This document shows, piece after piece, positions 4,570 to 8,785 of a DNA stretch of 16,817 nucleotides (its first letter is position 1; every line of letters begins with the position of its first letter). Under the pieces are notes generated by a model that worked only from the letters and a program-made list of their open reading frames with translations, was not told where the DNA came from and searched no databases. Made by a program: the position numbers and the translations under genes. Origin of the DNA: Nitrosotalea sp. (GTDB lineage Archaea > Thermoproteota > Nitrososphaeria > Nitrososphaerales > Nitrosopumilaceae); NCBI GenBank assembly GCA_031296345.1, contig JARLFW010000003.1, positions 1-16,817 on the forward strand, in the 5' to 3' direction.

Positions 4570-5484
4570 TTAGAGCTTAAGAGATTCTTTCAATCCCTTG
4601 TATCTGTTTCTGATTGTTACTTCAGTTACCCCAGCAGCTTGTGCAACATCTTTCTGCGTTTTATTTTCTCCATTCATGACACATGATAGATACAATGCAG
4701 CAGCTGCAAGTCCCATTGGATCCTTTCCAGCAGAAATCTCCATCTCTGCAGCATCTTTTAAGATCTGTAGAGCTCTTCTTTTTGTTTTTTCACTCAAGCC
4801 AGCTTTGCTTGCAATTCTTGCGACACATTTTATTGGATCAACAACTGGCATTTTCAAATCAAGTTCTCGTAATAAAAGTCTGTAACATCTTGCAACATCT
4901 TTTCGTTTTATGTTAATTCCATTTGCAACATCAGTAAGTGTTCTTGGTGTTTCAGTATCTCTACATGCTGCATACAATGCAGCAGCCACAAGTCCTGGAA
5001 TTGATCTGCCTCTAACAAGGCCTTTGTCAAGTGCCTTTCTGTAAATATAAGCAGTTTTTTCAATTACTGCATCAGATAATGCAAGTTTATCTTTTAATCT
5101 ATCAAGCTCACTGAAAGCCTGTCTAAAGTTTCTATCTACTGGTTCATGTACTTGACTTCTACTATCCCAAGTTCTCAATCTCTCAATTGTACTTTTCATG
5201 GATGCAGAAAGTGGTTTTCCAGATGCATCTTTGTCAGCAGGACCAATTATTGTTGCAAGTCCCATATCATGCATTGCAAGTGAAGTTGGAGTTCCAGTTC
5301 TACTTCGATCTTCATGTTCTTCTTTAGAAAATGATCTCCATTCTGGACCAGATTCTTCTACACGTTCAGTAAGTACAAAACCGCAACCTCCACAAAACAT
5401 TTCTCCTGTAGTATTATCAGTTACCATCGGACCTTTTCCACAACGAGGACAACGTCCACCGCCACCGAAAGATTCGCGCGCCAT
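4570..5484 (-). CDS. tfb: Transcription initiation factor TFB (TFIIB homologue)
   Basis: This 304-residue protein is a complete archaeal TFB, which bridges TBP on the TATA/BRE element to RNA polymerase and helps open the promoter. A zinc ribbon uses C12, C15, C31 and C34 (CPRC and CGGC). The B-reader/linker segment follows (GPEWRSFSKEEHEDRSRTG), then two cyclin repeats at about 115-205 and 210-300; GLVAAALYAACR and GLAAAALYLSC mark the equivalent helices. The frame can be extended to an ATG at 5514, but the extra ten residues (MLTEILIRYN) are encoded by TATA-like DNA, and MARESFGGGG is the usual kind of N-terminus. Thaumarchaea often hold several TFB paralogues, so this may be one specialised copy. 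Two 23-bp direct repeats lie upstream. Confidence 0.96.
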   Translation of the reverse strand: MARESFGGGGRCPRCGKGPMVTDNTTGEMFCGGCGFVLTERVEESGPEWRSFSKEEHEDRSRTGTPTSLAMHDMGLATIIGPADKDASGKPLSASMKSTIERLRTWDSRSQVHEPVDRNFRQAFSELDRLKDKLALSDAVIEKTAYIYRKALDKGLVRGRSIPGLVAAALYAACRDTETPRTLTDVANGINIKRKDVARCYRLLLRELDLKMPVVDPIKCVARIASKAGLSEKTKRRALQILKDAAEMEISAGKDPMGLAAAALYLSCVMNGENKTQKDVAQAAGVTEVTIRNRYKGLKESLKL

Positions 5485-5573
5485 ATTATATCTTATAAGA
5501 ATTTCGGTTAACATAGATAAAAAGGTTTAACTATGAGTAGGAATTGTATGATTTATTAAAATTTAATTAGAAT

Positions 5574-6121: not shown

Positions 6122-6760
6122 ATGACAACATTTGCAAACAACTGGCAAAAGCCACAAACACCAAGCATTGGTGAAAAATTTAATGATGTAATGAAGCCAA
6201 AAGGTGCTTTAAAACCAAGATTAGAGAATGGCATTAAAAGACTCCAGACTCAAATTGGAAAAACTGATGGAATGATTACAAAGCTAAAACAAAGAGATGA
6301 AAAGTTATTCAAGAGAATTGTAGTTGCAACACAGAATCATGATATAACTACAAGTAAGGTTTTATCAAAAGAATTATCTGAAGTTAGAAAAGTAACAAAA
6401 CTTTTAGGAAATGTTAGAATTGCTCTAGAACAGATTGAGCTTAGACTTAGCACATTCCATGACCTAGGAGATACTGTGGTAACTATCATGCCGACAATAG
6501 GCTTGATGAAGAACCTAAGATCTTCGCTTATTAGATTCATGCCAGAAGCTGACCGTGAGCTAACTGGAATGACTGAAATGTTAGGTGGTCTTATGACCGA
6601 TACATTCCATAGTGGAGACTTTGGAATTGACTCCGAGGCTACAAGCGAAGAATCAGAGAAGATTCTTCAAGAAGCTTCAGCAGTTGCAGAGGCAGCAATT
6701 AATGATAGATTGCCATCTACTCCTGTTGGTCAATCTTCCTCCTCAACCCGTTACGTCTAG
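6122..6760 (+). CDS. cdvB: CdvB-family ESCRT-III-like cell-division protein
   Basis: This 212-residue protein has the Snf7/ESCRT-III layout: a basic N-terminal helical hairpin (residues about 25-110, KPRLENGIKRLQTQIGKTDG followed by KLKQRDEKLFKRIV), a middle helix with the VRIALEQIELRLSTFHDLGD pattern, then an acidic region with a C-terminal helix (EESEKILQEASAVAEAAIND) and a Ser-rich tail. CdvB proteins polymerise at the membrane and are remodelled by the Vps4-like ATPase CdvC to constrict the division site in Thaumarchaeota and Sulfolobales. The sequence after the core is short, and no winged-helix domain of the Sulfolobus CdvB type is visible. cdvA and cdvC are not adjacent, and several CdvB paralogues are usual, so the exact paralogue is not assigned. 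It overlaps the MFS gene tail-to-tail at CTAG. Confidence 0.9.
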   Translation: MTTFANNWQKPQTPSIGEKFNDVMKPKGALKPRLENGIKRLQTQIGKTDGMITKLKQRDEKLFKRIVVATQNHDITTSKVLSKELSEVRKVTKLLGNVRIALEQIELRLSTFHDLGDTVVTIMPTIGLMKNLRSSLIRFMPEADRELTGMTEMLGGLMTDTFHSGDFGIDSEATSEESEKILQEASAVAEAAINDRLPSTPVGQSSSSTRYV

Positions 6761-8022
6761 ACTTTCTTTTGAGATAGTTTGTAGCGGAAGTATACCTGGA
6801 ATAAGACTAGTGACACTACTAGTATGACTGAGGCAGTTAGGAACATAGTCACATAACCTAGGGATTTTGTTAGCTCACCAGTTACAATTGAACCGACAAA
6901 TATTCCTAAACCTGTTACTGCACTATTTACCCCTAGATACTTTCCTTCAAATCCCTGTGGAATGCTCTTGAAAAATATCACCGAACTAGATGTACTAAAA
7001 ATTGAAAATCCGATTACCATTAGACAAGCTGATGCTATTGTCATTGGAAATCCTGATACTCCCGTCATGAAAAGTAATGAAATAGCAGGGATAGTTACAG
7101 CCAAAATTCTTGGTATGTATGCTATTATCGTTGATCTTTCTTCTCCAAACTTTGATATTATTTTTGGAGCAATAAAAAAAATCAATAACATAGTTGCCGT
7201 TTGAATCATGTAATTTAGAAAGACATCAGAGTTTGAATAATTCTGATTCTTCAAAAATGGTGTCCAGGCAGTAAAGTAAATGTTGCTTCCAAAATAGAAA
7301 AAGAATGATGCTAGATAAAATATGCCAATCTCATGACTAATTCTTCCTCTAAATATTGTAATTATGTGTCTAAAATCATATGCCTCCAAGGCCTTTGGAA
7401 AGACAAAATGGTAATTGCTAATTGAATAACGCAGACCATGTAAAGAATGTGCAATACTGCTTCTCTCAAGATGGATTCCATCACCTTTTACAGCTGTACT
7501 TAAAATCATTGATGCACCACTTGATGCAGCACATATTAGAAAATATGGTCTAATATCAAAATTAAAACTTCCAACTGTTCCAATAGCCATAGCTACTAAC
7601 ATTCCGATAGTACCGATAACTGATGTACGTGCAAATAACCAACTCCAGAGATTTTTTTGTACTGATTCCATCACAAGAAGCTGTGTTACTGGGCTTTTTG
7701 CTACTAGAAAAAAACCAAGAATTATTGCTAATCCATAAAGAATGTAAATTGAATTGGTAAAATACATTCCAATACAACAAAGTAAAACAGAAAAGGATGA
7801 GAGGATAAGTATTGATCTCTTAGCATGAAATCTATCGATTATTCTACCCCAAGCAAGTGAACCTATTGCTACAGATCCGTTCTGAAGCGCAGATATTATG
7901 GCTACTTCACCTATGTTGCCACCAAGAAAGATCACATATAGTGGAATTACAGTACTTAATCCTTGAGCAGTTATCTGAGATGGTAACAAATACCATATCC
8001 ATCGTTTAGCTTGAAGTCGCAT
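6757..8022 (-). CDS. MFS transporter, 12 transmembrane helices
   Basis: This 421-residue protein is hydrophobic throughout, with about twelve membrane helices in two halves joined by a polar central stretch (KGDGIHLERSSIAHSLHGLR to the AYDFRH region). The MFS signature after helix 2 is clear: AWGRIIDRFHAKRS (G-x3-D-R-x3-K-R). It is therefore a secondary transporter of the major facilitator superfamily. The substrate cannot be read from sequence. A multidrug or small-metabolite exporter is the commonest role for this type. The start at 8022 is supported by the TATA box and palindrome just upstream. Its end overlaps cdvB by 4 bp. The candidate RNA at 8105-8294 lies directly upstream on the same strand. 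Confidence 0.88.
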   Translation of the reverse strand: MRLQAKRWIWYLLPSQITAQGLSTVIPLYVIFLGGNIGEVAIISALQNGSVAIGSLAWGRIIDRFHAKRSILILSSFSVLLCCIGMYFTNSIYILYGLAIILGFFLVAKSPVTQLLVMESVQKNLWSWLFARTSVIGTIGMLVAMAIGTVGSFNFDIRPYFLICAASSGASMILSTAVKGDGIHLERSSIAHSLHGLRYSISNYHFVFPKALEAYDFRHIITIFRGRISHEIGIFYLASFFFYFGSNIYFTAWTPFLKNQNYSNSDVFLNYMIQTATMLLIFFIAPKIISKFGEERSTIIAYIPRILAVTIPAISLLFMTGVSGFPMTIASACLMVIGFSIFSTSSSVIFFKSIPQGFEGKYLGVNSAVTGLGIFVGSIVTGELTKSLGYVTMFLTASVILVVSLVLFQVYFRYKLSQKKV

Positions 8023-8036
8023 CTTTCTAGATAATC

Positions 8037-8060
8037 AACGGCTAGCCGTTATTGTATAAT
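8037..8060 (-). promoter_or_regulatory. TATA box with 14-bp palindromic operator for the MFS gene
   Basis: AACGGCTAGCCGTT at 8037-8050 is a perfect palindrome. On the minus strand the TATA element ATTATACAAT (8051-8060) directly precedes it, and the MFS ATG is 15 bp past it. The palindrome thus sits between TATA box and expected start site (about 8029), where a bound repressor would block polymerase. Confidence 0.6.
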
Positions 8061-8104
8061 GCATTTGAAAAATCTCCATGGTTTTGTCTATCTTTGTTAC
8101 AGGT

Positions 8105-8294
8105 GAAAAAATTCTATCATGCAAGAGTGTGGAGACCACACATGGTGAGTGTGATACACTCAAAGCATTGAGATGACCTTTGTCATCTTCTCCTTCGGGG
8201 GTACCTTGGGATGCTTGTGTTGAAAGATTTGACCTTGCAACATCACACATTGCTTGCATGATTCCTATCTAAGGAGGATGCCTTTAGGTAGGGA
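8105..8294 (-). ncRNA. Candidate multi-hairpin structured RNA (unknown family)
   Basis: A 10-bp perfect closing stem, ATCATGCAAG (8116-8125) with CTTGCATGAT (8253-8262), encloses a series of perfect hairpins: GTGTGG/CCACAC (8127-8141), GAGTGT/ACACTC (8147-8161), AGATGAC/GTCATCT (8171-8188), and weaker ones at 8190-8201 and 8218-8242. Another hairpin at 8264-8292 (about 11 bp, one bulge) lies outside. On the minus strand a strong TATA box (8315-8322) predicts a start near 8292, the first base of this outer hairpin, and T6 at 8105-8110 follows the closing stem. Three pairs are G-U only on the plus strand, which points the other way, so the strand is not settled. A 74-codon open frame (8035-8259, minus) overlaps it and is probably spurious. 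I recognise no tRNA, SRP, RNase P or known riboswitch core. Confidence 0.6.
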
Positions 8295-8314
8295 ATAATA
8301 GTACGTGAATAAAA

Positions 8315-8326
8315 TATTTAAGGTTT
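8315..8326 (-). promoter_or_regulatory. Strong BRE/TATA promoter for the 8105-8294 RNA
   Basis: Minus-strand AAACCTTAAATA is identical to the zinc-finger gene promoter core at 5784-5795. It is flanked by imperfect inverted copies, TACGTGAA (8302-8309) and TTTACGTA (8324-8331), which could be a regulator site. The rest of 8331-8446 is AT-rich, with a TATA-like TCTATATG at about 8407-8414 for the next gene. Confidence 0.5.
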
Positions 8327-8446
8327 ACGTATAATTTGATACTAAAACTCTAGATTTATGTAAATAAGCAAAGTTATAACATAATTTTAAAAATATCTTG
8401 AAATTTCTATATGAAAGCTTTTATGATGCGATGATGTAATTTAGTC

Positions 8447-8785
8447 ATGAAAAAGAGTGGGGATGTGTATCAACTTATTTACGAATCAAATCTAGACAGC
8501 AAATTGGAACAGATTCTAATTGGATTGGTAAAAGATAATCCTTCTCCAAAGATTGAATCAATAATTCAAAAATTCCTTTTGTACGTTCAGCACTCCACAG
8601 AAAATTTCTGGACAACATACTATAGCGCAAGAACATATGAGGAAAAACTGGATTGTTACTATCAATATTCTAAGAATCAATGTCTTGCAACTAAAGTACT
8701 GGTAAGAGATCTAAGTTCATTATCTTCTGATGATGAAATAAAGGAAAATCTAGACGCCTTGGTAAAAGAGAGTTTTACATTCTAA
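8447..8785 (+). CDS. Hypothetical helical protein, 112 residues
   Basis: I do not recognise a family. The text is predicted mostly helical, soluble and without a signal peptide, with alternating charged and hydrophobic residues, aromatic-rich in the middle (STENFWTTYYSARTYEEKLD), and a few cysteines (DCYYQ and NQCLATK). The ATG at 8447 sits 33-40 bp after TCTATATG, a fitting promoter distance. Codon use is ordinary for the window, and the stop shares CTAA with the converging coiled-coil gene (8782-8785). That precise junction supports both reading frames as real. Confidence 0.65.
   Translation: MKKSGDVYQLIYESNLDSKLEQILIGLVKDNPSPKIESIIQKFLLYVQHSTENFWTTYYSARTYEEKLDCYYQYSKNQCLATKVLVRDLSSLSSDDEIKENLDALVKESFTF

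Follow-up and report, generated by a model that had tools for sequence, protein, structure and literature searches.

The stretch between two protein-coding genes of a soil ammonia-oxidising archaeon, Nitrosotalea sp., is very probably the gene for a folded RNA some 190 bases long. The window analysed here is the whole stretch of 16,817 nucleotides of contig JARLFW010000003.1, and positions 8106–8293 of its minus strand are read as an independent, freestanding, single-copy, trans-acting structured RNA, with a rough probability of 0.85. The region combines a conserved, covarying fold, promoter-like and terminator-like signals of its own and a non-coding character, as is found in freestanding non-coding RNAs. 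The RNA family is lineage-specific and new to Rfam. The RNA, its signals and its two neighbouring genes are placed as follows.

8106–8293, minus strand: the RNA, approximately 188 nt, with the 5′ end estimated from the TATA spacing and the 3′ end from the T run
8302–8322, minus strand: putative RNA promoter, CTTAAATATTTTATTCACGTA, with a TATA-like box and a CGTA element
8106–8111, minus strand: T run four bases after the outer stem P1, a likely transcription terminator
8050–8079, minus strand: conserved block before the MFS gene, ATGGAGATTTTTCAAATGCATTATACAATA, likely the MFS promoter and outside the RNA
6757–8022, minus strand: MFS transporter (Pfam MFS_1, E 1.5e-30), a downstream neighbour and not a required partner
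8447–8785, plus strand: g112, the divergent neighbour, coding for a 112-aa protein predicted to be all-helical

The preliminary description of this DNA had proposed a multi-hairpin RNA enclosed by a perfect 10-bp long-range stem, and this stem (8116–8125 with 8253–8262; ATCATGCAAG and CTTGCATGAT) is real, as are the perfect small hairpins at 8127–8141, 8147–8161 and 8172–8187. The minus-strand fold is more stable than expected by chance (z −4.04, none of 200 dinucleotide shuffles being as stable). Comparison of the homologous loci resolved the fold into the following elements, where the counts of pairs changed on both sides and of paired cells refer to the alignment A5 described below.

8264–8292, minus strand: P0, hairpin at the presumed 5′ end, with CAAAGGA..AUCCUCC conserved in most species; 4 of 6 pairs changed on both sides, 96.1% of cells paired
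8253–8262, minus strand: 5′ strand of the outer stem P1, AUCAUGCAAG; 99.6% of cells paired
8116–8125, minus strand: 3′ strand of P1
8243–8249, minus strand: 5′ strand of the inner long-range stem P2, with its partner at about 8142–8148, weak in the window itself; 6 of 6 pairs changed on both sides, 85.3% of cells paired
8218–8242, minus strand: P3 hairpin; 8 of 8 pairs changed on both sides
8163–8216, minus strand: P4 domain, a stem (8212–8216 with 8163–8167) around P4a and P4b; 5 of 5 pairs of P4 changed on both sides
8192–8210, minus strand: P4a, inside the P4 domain
8172–8187, minus strand: P4b hairpin, GAUGACAAAGGUCAUC, with GACAAWGGUC nearly invariant
8147–8161, minus strand: P5 hairpin, variable; 5 of 5 pairs changed on both sides, 87.9% of cells paired
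8127–8141, minus strand: P6 hairpin; 3 of 6 pairs changed on both sides, 94.1% of cells paired

Covariation of the stems among homologues had been named as a check, and the stems were found to covary in three alignments. In a MAFFT alignment of 23 sequences, 90.4% of the cells were paired and 23 of 62 pairs had changed on both sides; the 47 cells with double changes compare with 12.7 after shuffling and with 5–16 in slid controls, and none of 500 shuffles reached the observed value. Two further alignments, A3 (32 Nitrosotalea copies, the 33rd, L066, being omitted as it looks near-identical to L064) and A5 (34 of the 43 copies, from five genera), were fitted by a model to a structure that was itself drawn from the same sequences, so that their absolute numbers flatter the structure: A3 showed 91.2% of cells paired, 33 of 62 pairs changed on both sides and 134 double-change cells (43.3 shuffled; 8–30 in slid controls), and A5 showed 93.0%, 46 of 64 pairs and 226 cells (73.6 shuffled; 21–37 in slid controls), with none of 500 shuffles reaching the observed value in either. 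Even so, the slid versions fall far below the observed counts, and in A5 double changes were present in all 12 helices. Plain RNAalifold on the 23 sequences gave a sparser consensus of 40 pairs, 12 of them with changes on both sides. An alignment A2, containing six weak reverse-strand matches (14–18 bits) and misaligned sister-genus rows, was used for no count.

The most conserved letters of the RNA lie in P1, in the P0 loop and in the P4b hairpin. P1 contributes little covariation as its sequence is nearly invariant. P2 is clear in L021, L022 and L023. P5 is missing or reduced in L010, L014, L016, L017 and L019, and what was once its 3′ strand appears to have become the P2 partner in L010 and L014; P5 thus looks peripheral and exchangeable. 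In plain sequence, the RNA (identity 0.72) is no better conserved than the 26 bp past the T run (0.74; 22 loci); the case for the RNA rests on structure and signals and not on plain sequence identity.

The preliminary description had left the strand open, with three G-U pairs said to favour the plus strand. The count of such pairs is not decisive in either alignment (81 G-U vs. 65 A-C in A5, binomial p 0.21; 73 G-U vs. 66 A-C cells in A3, binomial p 0.61). Folding energy alone cannot decide the strand either, since the fold is stronger than chance on the plus strand as well (z −3.71, 0 of 200 dinucleotide shuffles as stable), and RNAalifold on both strands and single-strand energies brought no decision. 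The strand is instead given by the flanking signals: a TTAAATA box lies upstream of all 43 RNA copies, 16–17 nt ahead of the model start in the six copies measured, and a T run lies a few bases after P1 in all 43 (T5 in 25, T6 in 16 and T4 in 2). From these two signals we infer that the RNA is transcribed from the minus strand. The promoter block has a mean pairwise identity of 0.86 vs. 0.63 in the spacer beyond it (22 Nitrosotalea loci); its CGTA element reads TGTA in two copies and is absent in G068. A transcription start had been predicted near 8292, which fits with CTTAAATA at 8315–8322, about 26 nt upstream of this putative start. The T6 expected after the closing stem is found at 8106–8111, following the four bases AGAA in the minus-strand sense. 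A comparison by eye of the flanks of the RNase P and SRP RNA genes with the RNA promoter revealed no evident common motif.

On these grounds, a single-copy RNA gene with a product of approximately 170–220 nt can be proposed. Minus-strand transcription would start from the RNA's own TATA promoter and would end at the U run a few bases past the closing stem. The transcript would have the hairpin P0 at its 5′ end and, next to it, a closed multi-branched domain (P1, P2, P3, P4 with P4a and P4b, P5 and P6), and would act in trans as an RNP scaffold or a regulator.

The distribution of the RNA was established by a series of searches. BLASTN with 8090–8310 found matches in 23 of 61 genomes, including that of the window. 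A covariance model built from these 23 sequences (R1) matched 42 of 200 genomes of the family with one copy each at E ≤ 0.001, namely 33 of the 37 genomes of Nitrosotalea (g1) and 9 in the genera g26, g28 and g41. A second model (R2), built from the 9 sister-genus copies, added G068 of the genus g29 (48.3 bits, E 3.3e-14); within the order it matched 38 of 400 genomes, none of them outside g1, g26, g28, g29 and g41. The single, diverged copy of G068 scored 73.3 bits with the joint model R3, which by then included it. Together, the carriers are 43 distinct genomes, 33 of Nitrosotalea and 10 in four sister genera. R3 on 398 genomes of the phylum gave 12 matches at E ≤ 0.05, ten in g1 and g26 and two weak and partial, and with lax filters on 40 selected genomes (G068 and 39 without a confident match) it found only G068, all other scores being ≤ 16.8 bits. 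Matches outside the lineage (20.4, 15.2 and ≤ 16.8 bits; 17.6 bits in G043) were short, with the model largely deleted, and were taken as chance. An exact-pattern scan of named GTDB genomes retrieved 35 contigs, each of which carried Thaumarchaeota, Nitrosopumilales, Nitrosopumilaceae or Nitrosotalea in its title. Four Nitrosotalea genomes gave no RNA match: the contig of G027 breaks off within g112, next to the locus; the assemblies of G025 and G033 are incomplete, at 86% and 70%; and in G013 (96% complete) neither the RNA nor g112 nor the MFS gene was found. The RNA hence seems dispensable in G013.

The conserved letters occupy the closing stem and short loops and form no long open seed, and hence the RNA is most likely bound by a protein. 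That the most conserved letters lie in P1, the P0 loop and P4b suggests that the RNA is protein-bound or tertiary-folded and acts in trans, as an RNP scaffold or regulator, instead of being an MFS leader. A small base-pairing regulator, in which the P0 loop AUCCUCC would mask Shine–Dalgarno-like GGAGG sites of mRNAs, would account for the conservation of AUCCUCC in most copies. The loop reads AUCCUUCC in three of the five g26 copies, though, and CUUCCC in G068, and the motif is absent in G022. A short GG-CC pairing is kept where the motif changes, so that it is the P0 pairing rather than a seed which is conserved, and a regulator of this kind is considered unlikely.

The preliminary description had weighed an independent RNA against a leader of the MFS gene. 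The independent RNA is upheld, while the leader is opposed by RNA copies without an intact MFS gene at the locus, by G068 and by the promoter-like block before the MFS gene. A riboswitch-like leader would fold as an aptamer, P1 and the U run would terminate transcription, and a ligand or protein would decide on read-through into the MFS gene. Terminator-type riboswitches have a closed multi-branched fold whose closing stem is followed by a U run, and the RNA shares with them its multi-branched fold, its stem and U run (P1 with T4–6 could serve as a conditional terminator) and a downstream transporter gene in most species. It lies on the MFS strand and ends 84 bp ahead of the MFS start (measured from the T run to 8022), close to the 80 bp estimated earlier. 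A leader always lies 5′ of the gene it controls, however, and the MFS coding sequence comes next on the same strand in only 38 of the 43 carriers. At the locus only MFS fragments were found in G017, and no MFS gene in G016 (strain TS; one 13-residue match, E 0.057), G020, G034 and G068, and yet the RNA is intact in G016, G017, G020 and G034. As a leader acts in cis, an MFS gene missing from the locus counts against this reading regardless of MFS genes elsewhere.

In a tree including 38 of the 41 supplied loci, G016, G017 and G020 form one clade with G034 branching beside it, so that these four Nitrosotalea loci need only one or two losses. Among three of these four genomes, three comparisons revealed one double-sided change, with 2–3 pairings lost or gained in each; with so few informative pair changes, covariation does not prove continued selection after the loss. 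The 30-bp block at 8050–8079, which ends in CATTATACAATA, has an identity of 0.89 (22 loci) vs. 0.86 for the TATA block of the RNA; such a conserved promoter-like block directly ahead of the MFS gene argues against co-transcription with the RNA. It is retained in G034, where the MFS loss may therefore be recent.

The copy in G068 (93% complete) also differs from the riboswitch arrangement, as no credible gene was found on the RNA strand in the 2.9 kb following it. The larger frames there are on the opposite strand, and the same-strand frames, of 73 and 76 codons with TTG starts, overlap them. The RNA of G068 is preceded by a TATA-like box and located about 290 bp after a gene which by eye resembles RNA 3′-phosphate cyclase, and a search of the whole genome revealed neither MFS nor g112. 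The gene order g197-g112-RNA-MFS-CdvB, moreover, is conserved across 12 further loci (11 with g197 and g112, one cut by the contig end), so that the adjacency of RNA and MFS gene needs no functional link. A leader of the MFS gene is accordingly regarded as very unlikely.

The other neighbour, g112, adjoins the RNA in 41 of the 43 carriers, one of the remaining two being cut by the contig end and the other, G068, being without a match. It is strongly conserved, with 232 homologues at E ≤ 0.001 (the best 120 of the 232 being listed). AlphaFold predicted five helices with a mean pLDDT of 84.8, and no Pfam match was found for g112. Homologues of both MFS and g112 exist in other genera where the RNA was not found. 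Since neither was found in G068, where the RNA occurs, and both occur in genera without a match to the RNA, neither is a required partner.

The hairpins could also have arisen as a by-product of an element that codes for protein or works at the DNA level, as a 74-codon frame overlaps the region and P1 is almost invariant, which would be expected of a palindrome bound by a protein. Clear protein conservation of this frame had been set out beforehand as evidence against an RNA. Compared from the same ATG across 30 loci, the frame varies from 1 to 74 codons and reaches 74 in two; a conserved protein-coding frame was rejected. Along with this lack of conservation, the changes on both sides in all 12 A5 helices and an upstream box and T run in register make a by-product extremely improbable. 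Equally hard to credit is a Y-RNA-like RNA bound by Ro: Y RNAs have an invariant terminal stem and an oligo-U tail, which the nearly invariant P1 and the following U run recall, but in the present RNA a 5′ hairpin stands before P1, and TROVE (PF05731) was found in none of seven genomes, six of them carriers (1 of 14 control genomes positive), so that this identity is largely refuted.

The comparison with Rfam that had been recommended yielded no family matching the RNA region. Searches of Rfam 15 gave no match at the gathering threshold in the whole window, none at E ≤ 5 for 8106–8293 and its surroundings (7950–8500), and the loci of six carriers gave none at E ≤ 1. The archaeal RNase P RNA (RF00373) and SRP RNA (RF01857) are likewise freestanding and structured; they were searched for in five genomes, three of them carriers (G000, G005 and G035), in which both lie at other contigs or positions, and were rejected as identities for the RNA. 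In the genome of the window they are located elsewhere, and neither matches the region in Rfam. Tan1, which Hou et al. (2016, PMC5069720) describe for marine group II Euryarchaeota, is an abundant ncRNA with a length of 229 nt; by this description, it resembles the present RNA in being archaeal, non-coding, about 200 nt long, complex in its predicted fold and without an assigned function, and differs in belonging to another archaeal lineage. OLE RNA, going by partial accounts, is likewise a lineage-restricted structured RNA class and works as an RNP, but it is a large bacterial ncRNA class of about 600 nt, and no Rfam match to it was found here. No such RNA is described among the matches listed in the literature search, most subscription journals being outside its scope. 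The genome paper of N. devanaterra, as far as its available text goes, counts seven unnamed small RNA genes (PMC4836417), one of which may be the RNA of 8106–8293.

To our knowledge, few structured archaeal RNA families are known beyond rRNA, tRNA, RNase P, SRP and guide RNAs. According to the accessible part of a 2012 survey, Rfam was then without archaeal-specific RNA functionality (PMC3486863). The present RNA adds a well-supported family without an Rfam 15 match, from a group to which acid-soil ammonia oxidisers belong. A dedicated RNP core or trans regulator specific to the Nitrosotalea lineage and tied to its low-pH lifestyle is a speculative and rather doubtful extension of the reading as a freestanding RNA. 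The carriers include N. devanaterra, N. okcheonensis, N. sinensis and Nitrosotalea sp. TS and FS. We take these named carriers to include cultures, and hence the expression of the RNA and its partners would be directly testable.

Some minor observations concern the surroundings of the RNA. Downstream lie a Snf7/CdvB-like ESCRT gene (6122–6760, plus strand), whose Pfam match (E 3.4e-4) stays below the curated threshold, and a TFIIB gene (4570–5514, minus strand); TFB was present in 9 of the 12 further loci. In Nitrosotalea sp. FS (L014:1–3214), the MFS alignment spans 477 columns for 403 query residues, which probably reflects an insertion, a frameshift or masked sequence in this gene.
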